DNA from: Daphnia pulex
Taxonomy: Eukaryota; Arthropoda; Branchiopoda; Diplostraca; Daphniidae
Direction of reading: 5' to 3'
Length of the DNA: 64,000 nt
Assembly: GCF_021134715.1 (NCBI RefSeq)
Contig: NC_060025.1
Span: forward strand, 7,192,001 to 7,256,000
The notes beneath the pieces were generated by a model. That model saw only the letters and a program-made list of their open reading frames with translations. It was not told the origin of the DNA and made no database searches. The stretch's first letter is position 1, and each line of letters opens with the position of its first letter. This document shows positions 825 through 31,050 of the stretch, one piece after another. The translations under genes and the position numbers were made by a program.

Positions 825-3800
825 TTAACAGGAGTGAACCACTCTTTTATTGAGTGATGATGAAATAATCTTGATAATTACTTCACCGCAAAAGCATAAC
901 ACGGACAATGCGAGTCCAAAGGCCAGGGCGACAAAGGCTCCGCTTAAACCAGCAAGTGTCACTCGCTGTTTGTTTGAGGCCACATCCCGCATCGGATTCA
1001 GACAACGGGACGCATCGACCATATTTCGTTTGAACCAGAAATCGACGAATCCAGCTTCGTGAGCCTTTAACAATCTGCTTGATAATTCAACAAGGTATTA
1101 GTCGGGAATAAGAATGACGCTCATTTTAAGAAATTCAAATGATTATGCTTTTCATTTAAAGATAACTTGCCCTCGGGTGTAAGGTTCAATGTCCACATTC
1201 TTCGCAACTGCCAGGCCGGCCCCAAAGCTAAAGAAGAGTTCCTTTGCGATTGTAAAATCACATTTGCCAGTTTTCTTCAAATCCAAGCCGATGTTTGTCT
1301 TCACGGTTCTATATTCCTGTATGGAGGACACAATATCTTATGTATAATTATTCAACAATTGTGTAATATGCTTGTTTCTTATATCGGTAATTCGGTATAA
1401 GTTTTACTTGGACATAAGCGCTGGATCCTTTTCGTACTCGCTCCAAACATTCCTCAGTAACGCTGCAACGTAAGTCGGGTTCCTTTCTTAGCTGATCTCC
1501 CAAATATTTGAAAATGCCTTCGTCTGCATTCTGTCCGCAAAATAAAGAATTAAGGTCATTTAATTATATTACGGTTGATTTCTTAATATAGGGCTGTAGG
1601 CTATATAGTTCTTTGACATAAACTGCTGTAGTATCTAGTAGTAGGGTAAAACAGCGAATCCGGACACGGCCCAAGAAAATGCGAATTCCGGACAAAATAA
1701 GCGATTTTTAAAGTATTGTAAATGCGATTAAACGATAAGATTATTGCCACATCTGATAAATGAGCTTTAAACTAAGAAGAAGGATACACAATTGAGCCAA
1801 AGGGCACAAAACAATATTGAAGATTAATTGAGATATCTTTAATTGAAAATTGAAATTTTCGCTTACGGTTTAAACGGTAATTCTGAGTATTCCTTGCTAG
1901 CTGACAGCTTAACGCCGTAAGGAATATCAAATATATAAACTAGAACAATCGAATAAATAATTATATGAAAAGATAGAGCTTGAAAAGCTCTACATTATTA
2001 TATAAACATTTGTCAAGATTGTGTAGAATTAAACGAAACTACAGCATAAAAAGAAAATGTTTACATTTTTCGAATGTTCGGACAGCTGATGCGAATGTCG
2101 GACAGAAAATTTTCTTAAAATTAAATTTTAGTTATTTTATTATAATTGCACATCAATCGACGTAGAATTTTGAGACAAATCGATTGATGTGCAATTTGCA
2201 TACGTTTAATTGCGTAATTTTAACATTATATGCGAAAAAAGATTAAAGTGGCTGAGGATCGAACCTGGCCAGATCCAAGAATATTGTCCCTGCTTTCTTT
2301 TTTTTAATTCTATTTTTTATTCGCATGGTTTTAAAGAACGTAGGGTTTTTGTGATGATCTTCAAAATTTTATGATTTTATGTTAATAATTCACTTACATA
2401 ATTGCTTCTATATCTCAAAAAGCTGTACCTTACGTCCGAAGTTTTTTTTTGTAAAATACTTAAGACTTTTTCGTTATTTTGCTTTAATTAAGTAAATATA
2501 TCCCTTCATAGTGGGTATTAACCAAGAAAATTGTAAAAATAGTTAAATATTCCCCCCCAAAATCTAAATGTGCCATTCTAATCCTGCTCCCATAAGGGAC
2601 CGTGATGCAAAATCCGGACAGTCTCATCACAAGCTATAGGCCTACTCATTATTTTCTAAGAATTTTATCATAATAACGGTTGGTATGGCTCTGTGGATGA
2701 AGTCTAGCGTGATAACATTGAGGGTTGGGGTTCAAATCCCGAAAATGATGGGATTTACATATAATTTTCATATCAGATTATCCAACGTAGAATATAGCAG
2801 GTTAATTCATAATAAACATGAGGTTTCATTTCTAAAATTTACTTTTACATATGTTTGAATTTATAAGACGATACATATCAAAAAATTTATCAGGTAGGAA
2901 GAGTTTTGAACTCTAGTTCATCGGCAACTTTAGGTACTACCATATACGGTCTTACCACTGAGCTAATTCGACTTTGAAAATTCGATCTATCTCAATGATG
3001 TTAATTAAGTCTAGTATTTACCAATAAGCTGTTATGTATGCATACAAAATGTAGAACATCATACCGATATGTAATGAAGATACAACTCACGAGTATCTTT
3101 GAGAAAATTCCTCATATAAATATTGTATTTTAATTGATTCGAACCACAGTTTCCCAGCATCGTAGTCTAAGATGCTACCTCTAAGCCATCCCATTACTTA
3201 TGAAACAATAGTAAAATGGATGTTATGGTAATCTGCAGTTTCGCTGTCCGGAATTCGCATCGTGGGCTCAAATGGGGGAACAACGCCATTAATATAGTTA
3301 ATAATATGAACGCTTTATTATATTTATGTAGCTCAAATTGTAGAGGGCATTATTCTGAATCTGTCTATACCAAGTTTTATTTTAAAAACATTTATTTGAA
3401 ATAAGTATTAATTCTTCGATATTTCGTTAGATCCGGACATTCGCAACACGTATGTCAGGCTTAACAATAAGATTTCTCGAAAATTCTACCACCGATTTTA
3501 GTTTAGTTTTTTATTAAAGTATTCTGGGCTTATTTGCTTCAGTAAAAGTTAGGTAACCTAATGATATATAAAATATTTATAAAAAATCATTTTTCTGTTG
3601 CTTGGCAGTTTTGAACTCAAGTTAAAACTTTCAGGCAGACGAAAAATGGATTTGACAGATCAATGTTTTGATTTTTCAAATCAAAAAATCTTAATATATT
3701 TCCATTGCACCATACCTGATGCCTTAAGCAATTCGATTCAGAATTAAAAACTGAATCAAATGAAAAAATTATTTTTTGAAAATATTTCTGTCCGGAATTC

Positions 3801-5408
3801 GAATTTTTGTCCGGGGCATTCGCATTTTGTCCGAACATTCGCATTTCGGATTTACACACAAACGCCATAAGAAAGCTTAATAAGAAAAACGATGTCCGGA
3901 TTCGCTGTTTTACCCTATATGAACTGACCGAAAAAAGAAGATCTGGAGACCATCCTCGGTTGACAGTGATTTTGATTTTAGAGTTTTTGGGTATGTCGTA
4001 AACGGATCGAATTAACGGCTTGTAATTAGGTGACGTTACAAATGAGATGAGGACGCTACTGTAAGCCGTCACCAGAACGAAACAAGCGACGCACCAAGTG
4101 CCGGCCAGAACGCGAATGGTCAACCTTTGATCGCGGCTCGTTCCACCTTGAGCTAGCAGACCTGTTAAGACGCGGAACGATATGCAAATTAAGGTGTAAT
4201 AAGAATGGGAATTCTTTGAGAGTCTCTTTTATACATTACCCTGAGATAAAATAACTCCAAATACATACTGAAAGGCTCCGCCAATATCTTCAAAAAGTTT
4301 GCCTAAATGAGCTTGATTGTTCCTCCTTTCTGAATTCTTCATGAATTCCGAAATGAAATGGCTGATGCCGTATAGGCAGAGCATGGTTGCCGTCATCGAA
4401 GCCACCAAAAAGATCCAGATCTGTATAAGACACGATTGAACATTAGCATCTGATAATACACACATCTCTGCATCAATTGGAGTTGGACCTGTCCCTGGAA
4501 TGGCTTCCAAACAGCATTGACGTCCACTTCTGAACTCGGCATCGGAATGACAAGACCAAATTGACCGATAACAAATGGATAAGGGAAGTTGAGTTTCTGG
4601 AAACGGCTGTATGTTGCAACGACCCCTCCTAATAATATTTCGGCTCTCTAAAAATACACAACCAAAGAAAAGAAAACCTTTTCTTTTGAGCATTGTTTAG
4701 AGATCAAATAACTATTATAGCATTCAATTTTCCATTAAATTTTAATTTTGTTATGGAGGCCAAATCGACTGTTACCTATTATACGTGCACATAAACTACA
4801 TGATATTTATCGTTTATTAGTTATTACCCCTTCAAGGATATAGCTCATAAGACCTTTTCCGGCAGCATTATTCTCGACGCTGTATATGTTGTCTGGCATA
4901 ATTTCAAATCTGCAATAAATGTATGCCTTTTTAAATTATGGAATCATGAGGTTATATCGCTCAATGAATAATGAATACTACAACATGCAAGCAATCCAAA
5001 ATTTTTAATAGGAAAATACATGAACACTTGATGGAAAACTTACTTGAAATTCATAGTGCGAGAGAGCCATAGAAGAACTGGAACGGCAACTCCTCCAAGT
5101 TTGATGATATGGTTACTGGAGTTTCTTACAACATTAAATACCGGAGGAAGCTGAAATGGCACAAATATACATGCATTGTACAATTGCGACAAGAACAATT
5201 TTTGAAAAAATATGTTTATAATAATATCTGATGATTGGTATAAGCTCACATGAAGCATTACGACGCGGAGTAATGTTTGGTTATCGGTACCATAACCTCC
5301 TCGTAAATTGTTGCCTTGGATTTCAAAATCATCAACATAAGTTGTACAATCGTAAATTCGAGTCAGCATTAGCAGAATAATCGCAGATTTCAGTATGGGT
5401 GATGACAT
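825..5408 (-). CDS. Ionotropic receptor (IR/iGluR superfamily), copy A
   Basis: This is a divergent ionotropic-glutamate-receptor-like channel of the arthropod IR family, likely a chemosensory plasma-membrane cation channel subunit. Nine exons read on the minus strand: 5408-5250, 5150-5044, 4909-4828, 4647-4489, 4420-4240, 4161-3929, 1530-1408, 1316-1171 and 1074-825. Together they encode 479 aa with a continuous phase. The start has a hydrophobic signal-like segment (ILLMLTRIYDC). The ligand-binding S1 lobe contains LRVVMLHLPPVF and the RAEILLGGVVATYSRF region with the conserved Arg. M1 starts at IWIFLVASMTATMLCLYG (about 170-190), followed by the pore loop ending in SQG, and M3 with AYSSVLISFVTSP. 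The S2 lobe lies in exons 7-9, and the last membrane helix is LSGAFVALAFGLALSVLCF (about 438-460). There is no long amino-terminal domain, as is usual for divergent IRs. Intron 6 holds a transposon. Intron 8 appears to use a GC donor (GG|GCAAGT). The ligand cannot be predicted. Confidence 0.9.
2235..2290 (-). other. tRNA-like 3' half inside the transposon
   Basis: On the minus strand a perfect Pol III B-box, GGTTCGATCC (2256-2265), is followed by a CAGCCAC acceptor-like segment and then a T run. The D-arm side is not recognisable and the T-stem pairing is imperfect. It is therefore a tRNA-derived remnant rather than a working tRNA gene. Confidence 0.45.
2678..2752 (+). other. tRNA-like sequence inside the transposon
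   Basis: A TGGCTCTGTGGATGA segment resembles an A-box (about 2685-2700). It lies about 30 bases before a perfect B-box, GGTTCAAATCC (2729-2739), with CCC after it and GGG before it able to pair as a T-stem. The acceptor stem does not pair convincingly. It is probably a tRNA-derived pseudogene. Confidence 0.5.
2895..2974 (-). other. tRNA-like sequence inside the transposon
   Basis: On the minus strand TAGCTCAGTGGTAAGA (2950-2965) is a near-canonical tRNA D-arm/A-box. It is followed after a spacer by GAGTTCAAAACTC (2901-2913), a self-complementary T-arm-like hairpin with a B-box. Acceptor pairing is poor and the B-box deviates by one base. It is likely a degenerate tRNA. Confidence 0.5.
3134..3198 (-). 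other. tRNA-like sequence inside the transposon
   Basis: On the minus strand TGGCTTAGAGGTAGCA (3173-3188) reads as a D-arm/A-box. It is followed by a 5-bp anticodon-type stem GCATC/GATGC with a 9-base loop, then GGTTCGAATC (3136-3145), a perfect B-box. This is the most complete of the four tRNA-like units. The acceptor stem is not clearly paired, so function is doubtful. Confidence 0.55.
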
Positions 5409-11500: not shown

Positions 11501-14393
11501 GGCTGGTGATGAGCAGACGATTTATTCAAACGACGCATCCGCCTTAACCTCTGGGCCGTTCCCGAAGTCTCGGAGCCAACGCCCGAATCGTTCCGCTCGA
11601 TCTCACCTCCTCCGCTGCCGCCATTCTGGAAAGAAAAAATAAGAAAAAGATAAGAAAAATGATCTTCCCTTCAGACACATAACTTTCGCCCACACACATA
11701 GTAATAGTATACTGCCGTCATCATCCACTCCCCTTTTTACCACCACCACCACCACCGGCCCATTCATTTTTTTTTTTTTTTTCGTTTGGGCTCATCGCGT
11801 GAAAGTCGCGAAATGATTGCGGGAAAAATGAAGAGAGAGACCGTGAACACGACGAAAAAGACTAGAGATGTTCAGAAACATGAGACTATGAATATTCATA
11901 AAACCTTTTTTTTTTTTTTATTATTATTATTATTTTTGCATTTGTTTGACTCCCACCGATAGTAGAGGAAACGGTTCTTTTCACCTCCAATGATCGTTAG
12001 TCATTTCTCGCCATTTTCGTTCTTTCGGTGTGTGGCAACCGGCACGCGGAAATGGCGTGACGGGTCAATACCAATCACATCGCCAACTTTCACCCAGGGA
12101 TTTCCGACGCCTTTCAATCGTCGATTTATGGAAATTTCTTGTCGGTTTGGGGTCCGTCGTGACACAACACACGCAGACTCATTTGTTCTTGTTTTACCTG
12201 GTAACCGCCGGTCGAGGACGTTGGCGTGATTCCCGGAGCCGATAGGGCGCTTTCCTGGCTGCTGGATTGCGTGCTGGTGCTGGACTGCGTGCTCCGGTTG
12301 CTGTTGCGATTGGGGCCGTTGTGGCGCATGGCCAAAAGGAGGGCGCCCATCTCGTCGTCTTCCTCCTCGTCGGCCGGAATCAGCTGCGGCAAACTGGGCG
12401 TCATGGGACTGGCCGGACTGGGACTGTTGGGTCGCTTCCGCTCTCTCTGCTCGGCCTCCACCGAAATGATGCCCGTCGGGTGTTTCTTGCGCAATTCCTC
12501 GAGGTAGCGCAAAATGTCCTGGCGACTGGCGCCGGCGAAGGAGCCGCCGCGGCCGGCCCGGCTCAGTCCCCTGCCGCGCTCCTTCATGTCGTCAATCTCC
12601 TCGTAAATGTGCTCCTCCTCGGCGGGCGGAGGCAACAACAAGGACGGGTCGGCCTGCACCCGACTGGCCGATCGATCACGCCCGATGGACGAGAAAGACG
12701 GCCACAGACGAGAGACGGGCCGACGTTTGGGTTCGTTTTCACCAGACGCCGGAGGAGGAGGAGGTTCCGGACGCGTTACCACCACAGGAGGAGGAGGAGG
12801 CTCCGACGTTCGATTTCTTCCGGCTGCTGGAAGCGGTTGTTTATCTTCTTTGACAGCGTCGAAGGCTTCGGACTCTTGCTGGTGATGCTGGTGGCCAGAC
12901 CAGGCTGTCCAGCTCACCATCTGCCGAAAGAGAAAACGACAGTTGGTGTTGTGTCAGGGGAACCTTCAAAGGTACATATGGAAATTTGTTCTTCGGGGAA
13001 AAGGATAGTTTACCTGTCCGATGAGAGGCCGTCCAGCCCACGAAGTGATACCAGGAGAGAGATCTAATGTCGGAAGAGGTGTGACAGGAACTGATGCGGC
13101 CAACTCGCTGGCCGACTTGTTGGCCGACGAGTCTCGGGGTAGACTGTCGTTGTCCGTTTTCGAGTGCCGGTAAATGCGGCGCGGAGGGGCCACAGGTGGC
13201 GGAGGCGGCGGAGTGTCGTCGTCGGGGCTTTCCGGTCCCGTCCCAACCTTGATGGACACTCCGGCATAGACCGGAGTGGGCGGAGGTGGCGGAGGCGGTG
13301 GCTCAGTCGGCCGGACGATCGTTTTGCGCCGGTTGTTGGGCGACTGCGGTGTCGGTGGAGTAGCGGCCGTCGTCGTCGTCACCGGAATCGTTAGCGGTTC
13401 CGGCGGAGACAAGCCGAAAAGATCGTGGAGCGATCCGCGTGATCGAGTCTTTTGTGTCAGGCGGGTCGTGTCGTGAAAACTGGCCGGCGCCGCCATCTTG
13501 GGTCGTGCCCGATCGCTCAGACTCCGCCGGAGTGGACAGCTCCGCTGGAATTCCACCTTGAGACTGACTTTCTCGGCCTTGATGGCCGCCGGCGAATCTT
13601 GGCCCGTCAAGATGCAAATCCGCTGGCCGCTGACGATCAGACCCGGTCGATCGACGGCCACCGTCGTCTGCGGAGGAGATTCGTCGCTGGCGTCGCTTTC
13701 ACCGTCGTCAGCGTCGTCATCCGACAGGTAGAGCGGCGGAGGAACGGACGTCGGTAAAGGCGGGGCTGCCGCGTGACTGACCGACACTCTGTGCTGCTGC
13801 TGTTGCTGTTTATTCTCCCTCATCTGGCGGATGTTTTGGTTGACATCCGCCGCCCGGAACTCGTAGGTGCCGTAATGATCTTCGGCCATTTTGGTCTGGA
13901 CTGTCGCCTTTCTTTCGCTCATCGGGCCGACCTCCATCGACGGATCGGCCGCACGAAAAACGGGTGAAGTCCTCACTGGATACAATCCACGGGTGGTTGT
14001 CCAGTCGGTGGTTCGCCGGATGGCGATCGAGCCCACCGCCGGAGTGGCCATCCATCCGTTGGCCGGATCGAGCCCGTATTTCTTGCGGTAGTCGTAGACG
14101 AAGTTGGCGGCCACGAAAACGCTGCCCTGGAGCGACGGAACCGAAGGGGCGTGGTGTCCTTCCTGCAGGTGCGGATGCGTGACCCAGGCGCTCGTCCAGT
14201 CCTCACCCGGTCCGGCCATGTGAGACTCGACGCCGCCGCTGTTGGAGGAGACGACGACCGTTCCGTATTGGCCGGCCGACGATTTGAATCGATCCTTGAG
14301 CCGGCCCGTCCACGATCGCCTCTTGCTGGCCATCGGCGGCGTTTTGACTTTCATGTCGTACATGGCAACTTGTCCGTCTCTTTGTTTGCGCAT
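8596..14393 (-). CDS. Rho guanine nucleotide exchange factor (DH-PH), 1220 aa
   Basis: This Dbl-family protein is predicted to catalyse GDP/GTP exchange on a Rho GTPase at the membrane or cortex. Eleven minus-strand exons are 14393-13014, 12920-12198, 11625-11381, 11302-11133, 10433-10243, 10168-10046, 9948-9808, 9686-9543, 9349-9179, 9044-8892 and 8817-8596. All phases join to give 1220 residues. Residues 1-780 are low-complexity and Ser/Pro-rich with poly-Pro runs (candidate SH3 ligands), poly-Gln and acidic DDDADDGESD. A C-x2-C ... C-x2-C cluster (C770, C773, C789, C792) lies directly before the DH domain. The DH domain (about 803-985) begins VLAELLETEVRYGRDLRVL and contains the hallmark VPVQRITKYPLLLGRLL. 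A PH domain follows (about 1055-1190), with EGYVKLTQPGELLL and a closing QQWLHRLRTLS helix. I could not assign the exact orthologue. The first Met is the first in the large exon; an additional upstream 5' exon is possible. Confidence 0.92.
9076..9096. repeat. (GA)n microsatellite
   Basis: About ten AG dinucleotides lie inside a RhoGEF intron. They would be CT on the coding strand, close to the acceptor of the penultimate exon, where they could serve as the polypyrimidine tract. Confidence 0.9.
12827..14307. repeat. RhoGEF 5' coding block, donor of the partial duplicate
   Basis: This part of the RhoGEF gene (most of exon 1, intron 1 and the start of exon 2) recurs in the same orientation at 29572-31050. 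The right border is at CTTGAGCCGG, after which the two sequences diverge abruptly. The left border is within the CGGCTGCTGG segment of exon 2. Confidence 0.88.
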
Positions 14394-29571: not shown

Positions 29572-31050
29572 TGCTGGCGGTTGTTTATCTTCTTTGGCAG
29601 CGTCGAAGGCTTCGGACTCTTGCTGGTGATGCTGGTGGCCGGACCAGGCTGTCCAGCTCACCATCTGCCGAAAGAGAAAACGACAGTTGGTGTTGTGTCA
29701 GGGGAACCTTCAAAGGTACATATGGAAATTTGTTTGAGAGGAAAAGGATAGTTTACCTGTCCGATGAGAGGCCGTCCAGCCCACGAAGTGATACCAGGAA
29801 GAGGTGTCGGAAGAGGTGTGACAGGAACTGATGCGGCCGACTCGCTGGCCGACTTGTTGCTGGCCAAAGAGTCTCGGGGTAGACTGTCGTTGTCCGTTTT
29901 CGAGTGCCGGTAAATGCGGCGCGGAGGGGCCACAGGTGGTGGTGGCGGCGGAGTGTCGTCGTCGGGGCTTTCTGGTCCCGTCCCAACCTTGATGGACACT
30001 CCGGCGTAAACCGGAGTGGGCGGAGGTGGCGGAGGCGGTGGCTCAGTCGGCCGGACGATCGTTTTGCGCCGGTTGTTGGGCGACTGCGGTGTCGGTGGAG
30101 TAGCGGTCGTCGTCGTCGTCACCGGAATCGTCAGCGGTTCCGGCGCAGACAAGCCGAAAAGATCGTGGAGTGATCCGCGTGATCGGGTCTTTTGTGTCAG
30201 GCGGGTCGTGTCGTGAAAACTGGCCGGCGCCGCCATCTTGGGTCGTGCCCGATCGCTCAAACTCCGCCGGAGTGGACAGCTCCGCTGGAATTCCACCTTG
30301 AGACTGACTTTCTCGGCCTTGATGGCCGCCGGCGAATCTTGGCCCGTCAGGATGCAAATCCGCTGGCCGCTGACAATCAGACCCGGTCGATCGACGGCCA
30401 CCGTCGTCTGCGGAGGAGATTCGTCGCTGGCGTCGCTTTCACCGTCGTCGGCGTCGTCATCCGACAGGTAGAGCGGCGGAGGAACGGACGTCGGTAAAGG
30501 CGGGGCCGCGTGACTGACCGACACTCTGTGCTGCTGCTGCTGTTGCTGTTTATTCTCCCTCATCTGGCGGATGTTTTGGTTGACATCCGCCGCCCGGAAC
30601 TCGTAGGTGCCGTAATGATCTTCGGCCATTTTGGTCTGGACTGTCGCCTTTCTTTCGCTCATCGGGCCGACCTCCATCGAAGGATCGGCCGCACGAAAAA
30701 CGGGCGAAGTCCTCACTGGATACAATCCGCGGGTGGTTGTCCAGTCGGTGGTTCGCCGGATGGCGATCGAGCCCACCGCCGGAGTGGCCATCCATCCGTT
30801 GGCCGGATCGAGCCCGTATTTCTTGCGGTAGTCGTAGACGAAGTTGGCGGCCACGAACACGCTGCCCTGGAGCGACGGAACCGAAGGGGCGTGGTGTCCT
30901 TCCTGCAGGTGCGGATGCGTGACCCAGGCGCTCGTCCAGTCCTCACCCGGTCCGGCCATGTGAGACTCGACGCCGCCGCTGTTGGAGGAGACGACGACCG
31001 TTCCGTATTGGCCGGCGGCCGGCCGACGATTTGAATCGATCCTTGAGCCG
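29572..31050 (-). pseudogene. Partial duplicate of the RhoGEF gene (5' coding part only)
   Basis: Minus-strand copy of RhoGEF residues from about RLKDRF in exon 1 through intron 1 (donor after 29757, acceptor before 29664) into the first 30 codons of exon 2. It then stops at the filler. The original start Met and promoter are missing, and a 7-bp insertion (duplicated GGCCGGC-type sequence near 31013-31020) shifts the frame close to the 5' end. The next in-frame Met (30959, MAGPGEDW) leaves about 430 codons open, but with no DH or PH domain. Few other changes are present, so the duplication is recent. Any transcript would encode only the disordered Ser/Pro-rich part. Confidence 0.85.

Follow-up and report, generated by a model that had tools for sequence, protein, structure and literature searches.

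What could tRNA-like sequences contribute to a DNA transposon that encodes no transposase? The question is raised by a 2,276-bp element at positions 1642-3917 of a 64,000-nucleotide stretch of the Daphnia pulex genome (C9:7192001-7256000, hereafter the window; coordinates without a contig or locus name refer to it). The initial annotation described a TA-flanked transposon carrying four tRNA-like segments. Analysis of the window, combined with searches of the genome (133,188,837 bases in 13 contigs), indicates that the feature is real and unusual and that, judged by its sequence, it is an array of putative RNA polymerase III (Pol III) promoters. The reading favored here, to which a probability of roughly 0.6 is assigned, is that the element represents large non-autonomous pogo-like transposons that would have kept a tRNA-derived Pol III promoter cassette.

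Architecture of the Element

The left end (1642..1666, forward strand) and the right end (3893..3917, reverse strand) are complementary at 25 of 25 positions including the TA, or over 23 bp without it, so that the exact inverted repeats of the annotation are confirmed. Both ends recur at related loci, where TA is likewise seen on either side. As had also been claimed, a transposase is absent: the longest stop-to-stop frame within the element comprises 99 codons, and no transposase-length frame was found in any of the elements scanned. An open reading frame of 168 aa at 3617-4123 on the reverse strand was rejected as a gene of the element, as it merely crosses the right end into the flank. With its inverted ends, TA on both sides, and lack of a transposase, the element has the properties of a non-autonomous DNA transposon with TA target sites. 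The copies that were cut out measure 1.9-2.55 kb between their ends and exceed the few hundred bp of a strictly defined miniature inverted-repeat transposable element (MITE).

Three tRNA-Like Units

Three units in the middle of the element, u2, u3, and u4, each combine a box A and a box B on the same strand at a distance of 43-53 nt with at most two mismatches in total, which is the tRNA-like arrangement of a type-2 Pol III promoter. Unit u2 (2686..2739) lies on the forward strand, with box A at 2686-2696 and box B at 2729-2739. Units u3 (2902..2965; box A 2965-2955, box B 2912-2902) and u4 (3135..3188; box A 3188-3178, box B 3145-3135) lie on the reverse strand. Against these three box pairs, 100 dinucleotide shuffles of the element gave a mean of 0.05 and a maximum of 1, and the remaining 61,724 bases of the window contain none at the same threshold and seven when three mismatches are allowed.

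The B-box-like words occupy the annotated places and strands (2265-2255, reverse; 2729-2739, forward; 2912-2902 and 3145-3135, both reverse), and three of the segments, the number credited with an A box, do possess one. The fourth segment did not stand: u1 (2255..2265, reverse; annotated as 2256-2265) is a B-box-like word inside the conserved left block of the element, its best A box has three mismatches, and its TTC core is lost in two of the related families described below (B and D). Family C does give a box pair at u1 with three mismatches, but a T6 run lies between its boxes. The notion of several different tRNA-derived units within one TA-flanked transposon lacking a transposase is therefore supported for three units.

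These units are not tRNA genes. ARAGORN reported no tRNA in the window and none in 18 of the 18 loci given to it, and the Rfam tRNA model (RF00005, cut-off 29 bits) yielded no match at E≤10 for 1400-4200, 2665-2775, or 2880-3215. In one of these scans, the sole tRNA-clan match was to tmRNA, a 13-nt T-arm match of 5.7 bits. Among the 35 units listed across the related copies, between 1 and 5 of the 5 T-stem pairs are kept, which is not the state of a tRNA gene. The covariance check that the annotation had proposed thus came out at background, and captured tRNA genes do not suffice as an account of the array.

Related Families and Copies

Related copies fall into four families, A (including the window element), B, C, and D, with a whole-alignment likeness of 57-63% between A, B/D, and C. 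Family B comprises L014-L019, and family D (L058-L060) is 79-81% identical to it. Family C contains two subfamilies (L052/L053, and L054-L057, L066, L067, and L090) that are 72-74% alike. Within family A, a copy on C4 has the same length and differs at 3 of 2,276 positions (99.9% identity); since the two near-identical copies occupy different sites, recent movement is indicated. The other A copies found are older: C3:5114110-5116654 is 92-96% identical and carries an inserted segment of about 275 bp, C3:2373775-2375072 is 88% identical and lacks its left part, C10:6865303-6872662 is split, and C10:6892517 consists of a right end only. Both ends are present in 20 of the 30 sequences examined, and TA abuts them except in L064, where AG precedes the G run; the terminal G run after TA is shorter in L010, L058, L059, and L060. 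Across the genome, the terminal repeat pattern matched 92 times with up to two mismatches, 44 of these matches being exact. The reversed control reached 48, so matches with two mismatches are unreliable.

The annotation had suggested checking whether the units recur in other copies, and they do: u2 and u4 occur in families A-D and u3 in A, B, and D. An alignment-free scan of 19 sequences, some of them partial, located u2 (forward), u3 (reverse), and u4 (reverse) in matching positions and orientations; the alignment served to place u4 of subfamily L053 and u2 of L058. With up to three mismatches allowed, 15 of 16 elements contain three box pairs and one contains two (shuffle means 0.09-0.24), although the third pair in five family C entries is the doubtful u1.

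In one A copy, L061, a 6.4-kb insertion containing a piggyBac transposase (PF13843) interrupts the element at an ATAA duplication (corresponding to window 2592-2595). This Pokey-like piggyBac element spans approximately L061:2180-8616, and Pokey is reported to use ATAA as one of its alternative targets in D. pulex (PMC3849761). Adjoining the broken copy, L061:1010-1408 holds three box pairs of tRNA-like type, all on the same strand and in the space of 400 bp.

Conservation of the Promoter Boxes between Lineages

The old lineages were compared with box positions defined on the window copy alone. In the middle of the element (element positions 990-1600), the u2 and u4 boxes are 69-73% identical across five lineages and the rest 36%, and 24 of the 25 most conserved 11-mers (600 examined) overlap a u2 or u4 box. 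Unit u3 is poorly aligned in this region, with 57% identity in its B box and 23% in its A box. Between A, B/D, and C, the u2/u4 boxes are 70% identical compared with 34% for shifted sets, a value reached by 0 of 580 shifts. The same holds for A against the other groups (73%, 0/580) and for the two subfamilies of C (C1 vs. C2; 75%, 0/580). Identity between groups falls to 47.5% in the inter-box stretch, 29% in the 20 nt before box A, and 39% in the 20 nt after box B. As the boxes are well kept and the T-stems are not, it is the promoter boxes that have been conserved rather than the tRNA fold. Mobile tRNA pseudogenes, another proposal of the annotation, fall short as an explanation as well, since the u2/u4 boxes persist between groups with an overall likeness of about 60%, amid surroundings whose identity is about 34-36%. 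That the units have been kept in place amid changing DNA suggests that they do something for the element.

Divergence between Recent Copies

Recent copies were compared in six within-family pairs, of which three come from family B. Here, divergence amounts to 4% in the ends, 10% in the rest of the middle, 9.5% in the boxes, 18% in the inter-box stretch, and 20% in the 30 nt upstream. A profile of 11 units from four independent pairs shows two maxima, 31% in the stretch from −20 to −1 before box A and 25.5% from +20 to +39; over box A, divergence is 10%, and further than 40 nt upstream it drops to 5-9%. The upstream value compares with 15.5% for shifted sets and was reached by 0 of 410 shifts; individual units range from 15.8 to 45%, all 11 above the shifted mean. 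The second peak was reached by 12 of 410 shifts. The flanks of transcribed tRNA genes mutate fast, and the peak before box A suggests a footprint of transcribed tRNA-like genes. If so, it would serve as a marker of transcribed tRNA-like units that requires no more than sequence. Between the boxes of u2, at the place of the anticodon arm (window 2709-2727), 8 of 19 and 10 of 19 bases differ between A copies, and the adjacent boxes hardly change.

Probable Link to a Pogo-Like Transposase

The conserved non-coding left end is tied in one relic to a broken transposase gene. The left block of the window element (1642..2290, forward) is common to families B, C, and D (66-70%) and to the transposase-bearing relic L020 (80%), and the right block (3243..3917, reverse) is common to B, C, and D (69-73%). 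In L020, an A-like left end of 734 bp (80%) is continuous with the frames of a broken transposase, one of whose seven scanned frames matches DDE_1 (Pfam, E 5.2e-07). A profile search with DDE_1 (PF03184) returned 42 matches in the genome. A second relic, C2:8067457-8069246, has the L020-type left end and downstream sequence in pieces, with no listed DDE_1 match. For the left end, the tie to DDE_1 is a Pfam match in L020 and DNA homology in the second relic; no complete transposase-bearing copy with both ends was seen. The box scan detected no pair at up to two mismatches in L020. From these comparisons, the family ends presumably belong to pogo-like transposons, with the cassette sitting where L020 has its transposase.

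An exact family end at C7:4170649, where 661 bases were read as a B/D-type right end (79-87%), is separated by 2.7 kb from a DDE_1 match at C7:4167580-4167993. Two other DDE_1 matches were set aside: one, at C9:3757529, falls beyond the element end at C9:3758705, and another is accompanied near C10:10445170 by an end-like site with two mismatches, a level at which the reversed control gives many chance matches. PF13358 (DDE_3) was also rejected as the transposase, as none of its 35 genomic matches lies within 5 kb of listed ends.

Short repeated motifs vary with the families. Among nine elements, those of A and C each contain CGGACA 10-13 times, whereas those of B and D lack it and instead have 8-11 occurrences of GGGACA. 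A switch of this kind, made as a set, is the pattern expected of sites for a family-specific transposase.

Parentage of the Units

Resemblance to particular tRNAs differs among units and families. In families B and D, all five of the u3 copies compared have the tRNA-Arg of this genome as their nearest tRNA; the best match of u3 in A is Phe, not Arg. Unit u4 is nearest or near to Gly in A and C but not in B and D, and u2 has no consistent parent among the references compared. This comparison used 21 reference tRNAs, two of them retrieved sequences, and a second comparison used 15 strings hand-picked from about 100 plus one tRNA.

Interpretation and Alternative Explanations

Under the favored reading, this TA-target element with 23-bp inverted repeats and pogo/Tigger-type (DDE_1) ends would presumably be moved in trans by a transposase of that type. 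In its place, the element would carry three tRNA-derived type-2 Pol III promoter units, u2 pointing rightward and u3 and u4 leftward, in a cassette probably present before families A, B/D, and C diverged. Across the long-lived lineages, selection would have kept the two promoter boxes but not the tRNA cloverleaf. TFIIIC, TFIIIB, and Pol III may bind the units and produce short non-coding transcripts, and the element could thereby be kept accessible, or insulated from silencing, and hence still mobilizable. A bolder proposal, judged less likely than not, is that tRNA-derived Pol III promoters have become part of the machinery of these protein-free transposons: TFIIIC occupancy or transcription of the three-unit cassette would be needed for mobility, for instance by keeping the element open or by stalling replication forks at it, and a like device would have arisen in the unrelated L088 insert and L099 family (both described below).

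Several observations count against the favored reading. Unit u3 is missing in family C, and the B box is broken in u3 of the A copy at C3:5.11 Mb and in u4 of that at C3:2.37 Mb. The covariance scores of the units are at background. Between B and D, the boxes are 73% identical, but 58 of 580 shifts reach this value and the boxes are not outstanding. In recent copies, box A diverges by 10.6% compared with 15.3%, which is not significant (61 of 410 shifts give a value no higher), and offsets 43-53, roughly box B, are not reduced at all (15.7% vs. 15.5%). Box selection is thus visible between old lineages and not among young copies, as would be expected if selection has ceased to act on most insertions. 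Concerning transcription, strand-biased mutation in the units, as an excess of C>T over G>A, is absent (10/69 vs. 12/88), and the divergence peak before box A could have another cause. Absence of TTTT inside 25 of 26 units was discarded as a sign of Pol III transcription, since the antisense strand gives the same count (25/26) and the absence reflects composition.

Simple decay would account for some of these points. If an ancestor had captured tRNA genes or tRNA-derived sequences and its copies now carried the remnants as neutral passengers, the Arg-like u3 of B and D, the Gly-like u4 of A and C, the broken boxes in individual copies, and a within-family box divergence that is not clearly reduced would all be understandable. 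However, the u2 and u4 boxes are the best-conserved parts of an otherwise near-random middle between groups, and the tRNA stems have not been kept alongside them (T-stems with 1-5 of 5 pairs), which makes such passengers rather unlikely. The contrast between conserved boxes and unconserved cloverleaf, anticodon arm, and acceptor, together with the retention of two orientations, would equally suit insulator or barrier sites that bind TFIIIC without giving useful transcripts. Box A and the tRNA-like spacing, needless for such a site, are nevertheless kept as well as box B, and an initiation region is suggested by the rise in divergence immediately upstream of box A; a role confined to TFIIIC is accordingly judged unlikely, and slightly more so than neutral decay. 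Insulation, which the annotation had considered, is one way in which TFIIIC/Pol III sites could act.

Insertion of several tRNA-derived short interspersed elements (SINEs) into the element would explain the tRNA-like head, complete with box A and box B, that every unit possesses. Yet a genome search with 2240-3243 gave 13 matches, all 13 in family members or relics, so that no free copies were found; the position and strand of the units agree among families A-D, and no tail or target duplication is seen around them. This origin is therefore improbable. Chance resemblance in AT-rich DNA, which the lack of a tRNA match in Rfam and ARAGORN might seem to favor, hardly deserves credence: it is refuted by the shuffle and rest-of-window controls and by recurrence of the units in four families.

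Relation to Known Systems

In having TA at both ends, ends common to transposase-bearing relics, no coding capacity, and near-identical recent copies, the element resembles non-autonomous transposons and large MITEs of the pogo/Tigger type (IS630-Tc1-mariner, DDE_1). At 2.1-2.4 kb, with conserved non-coding ends of about 640 and 675 bp, the elements are larger than usual MITEs of a few hundred bases, and the apparent replacement of the transposase by a conserved tRNA-like promoter cassette sets it apart from pogo/Tigger non-autonomous elements. Like tRNA-derived SINEs, it has tRNA-derived units whose boxes A and B are spaced as in tRNAs; unlike them, it has DNA-transposon ends with TA, three units in two orientations, and no free copies. 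Extra-TFIIIC sites include TFIIIC bound at SINEs, and tRNA genes (tDNAs) can act as insulators. The units are like such sites in possessing a box B (and A) but no functional tRNA, and differ in being part of a DNA transposon and in having persisted as a trio whose orientations are fixed. Another parallel is found in mPok, the Pokey-derived MITEs of D. pulex, which form large, long-lived non-autonomous lineages paralleling autonomous ones; according to the excerpted account, these are piggyBac elements with TTAA targets, and that text mentions no tRNA-like units (PMC3849761).

In the open-licence literature of PubMed Central (PMC), a search returned no paper whose listing describes conserved tRNA-like promoters in DNA transposons. 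In the usual view, a non-autonomous DNA transposon requires its ends only. Here, several old lineages appear to have retained internal promoter boxes in fixed order and orientation while the intervening sequence turned over, and if these boxes do aid movement, Pol III would become a player in DNA transposition. The finding may also bear on tRNA gene counts, as some predicted Daphnia tRNA genes may be transposon-borne units, although those of the window are too degenerate for the programs used. Two published reports give 2,614 predicted tRNA genes in D. magna (PMC10570034) and 5,374 in D. arabica (PMC9820869).

Further Features and Similar Units Elsewhere

Two other conserved features lie within the element. 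A hairpin at 2144..2196 consists of a perfect 17-nt inverted repeat with a 19-nt loop, and its core pattern has 64 matches in the genome and none in the reversed control. An inner block (2585..2622, forward), which ends in the family motif GATGCNAAATCCGGACAG, forms with 3244-3276 an inner inverted repeat that brackets u2-u4. Among loci matching a left-block motif, the four that were read (L095-L098) are left-end fragments or left-end tandem arrays. At C3:8019630-8023144, a tandem array has grown from the family left end, with five left-block motifs at steps of 867-871 bp.

Box pairs also occur outside the families. A strict A+B pattern matched the genome 596 times and its control 0 times, many of the matches being ordinary tRNA genes, and a long tandem cluster of tRNA-Gly-like genes with steps of about 477 bp lies at C2:8739935-8786151. 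L099 (C3:5423700-5425700) is a different non-coding inverted-repeat element with exact boxes at 530 (reverse) and 1469 (forward), approximately 900 bp apart in opposite orientation, and a third B box. Its unit has 42 scored matches in the genome, at 40 or more places, and scores 21.1 bits with RF00005, below the cut-off of 29. In L088, a family C copy contains a 2.7-kb insert (L088:302-3005; C2:10821301-10824004) whose arms of about 990 bp are 97-100% complementary; a 208-aa frame of this insert has no Pfam match above cut-off, and each arm carries a tRNA-like unit, at 647 (forward) and 2662 (reverse). Elsewhere in the window, near-identical long reading frames of 475 and 433 aa at 12966-14393 and 29658-30959 (reverse strand) mark a recent segmental duplication.

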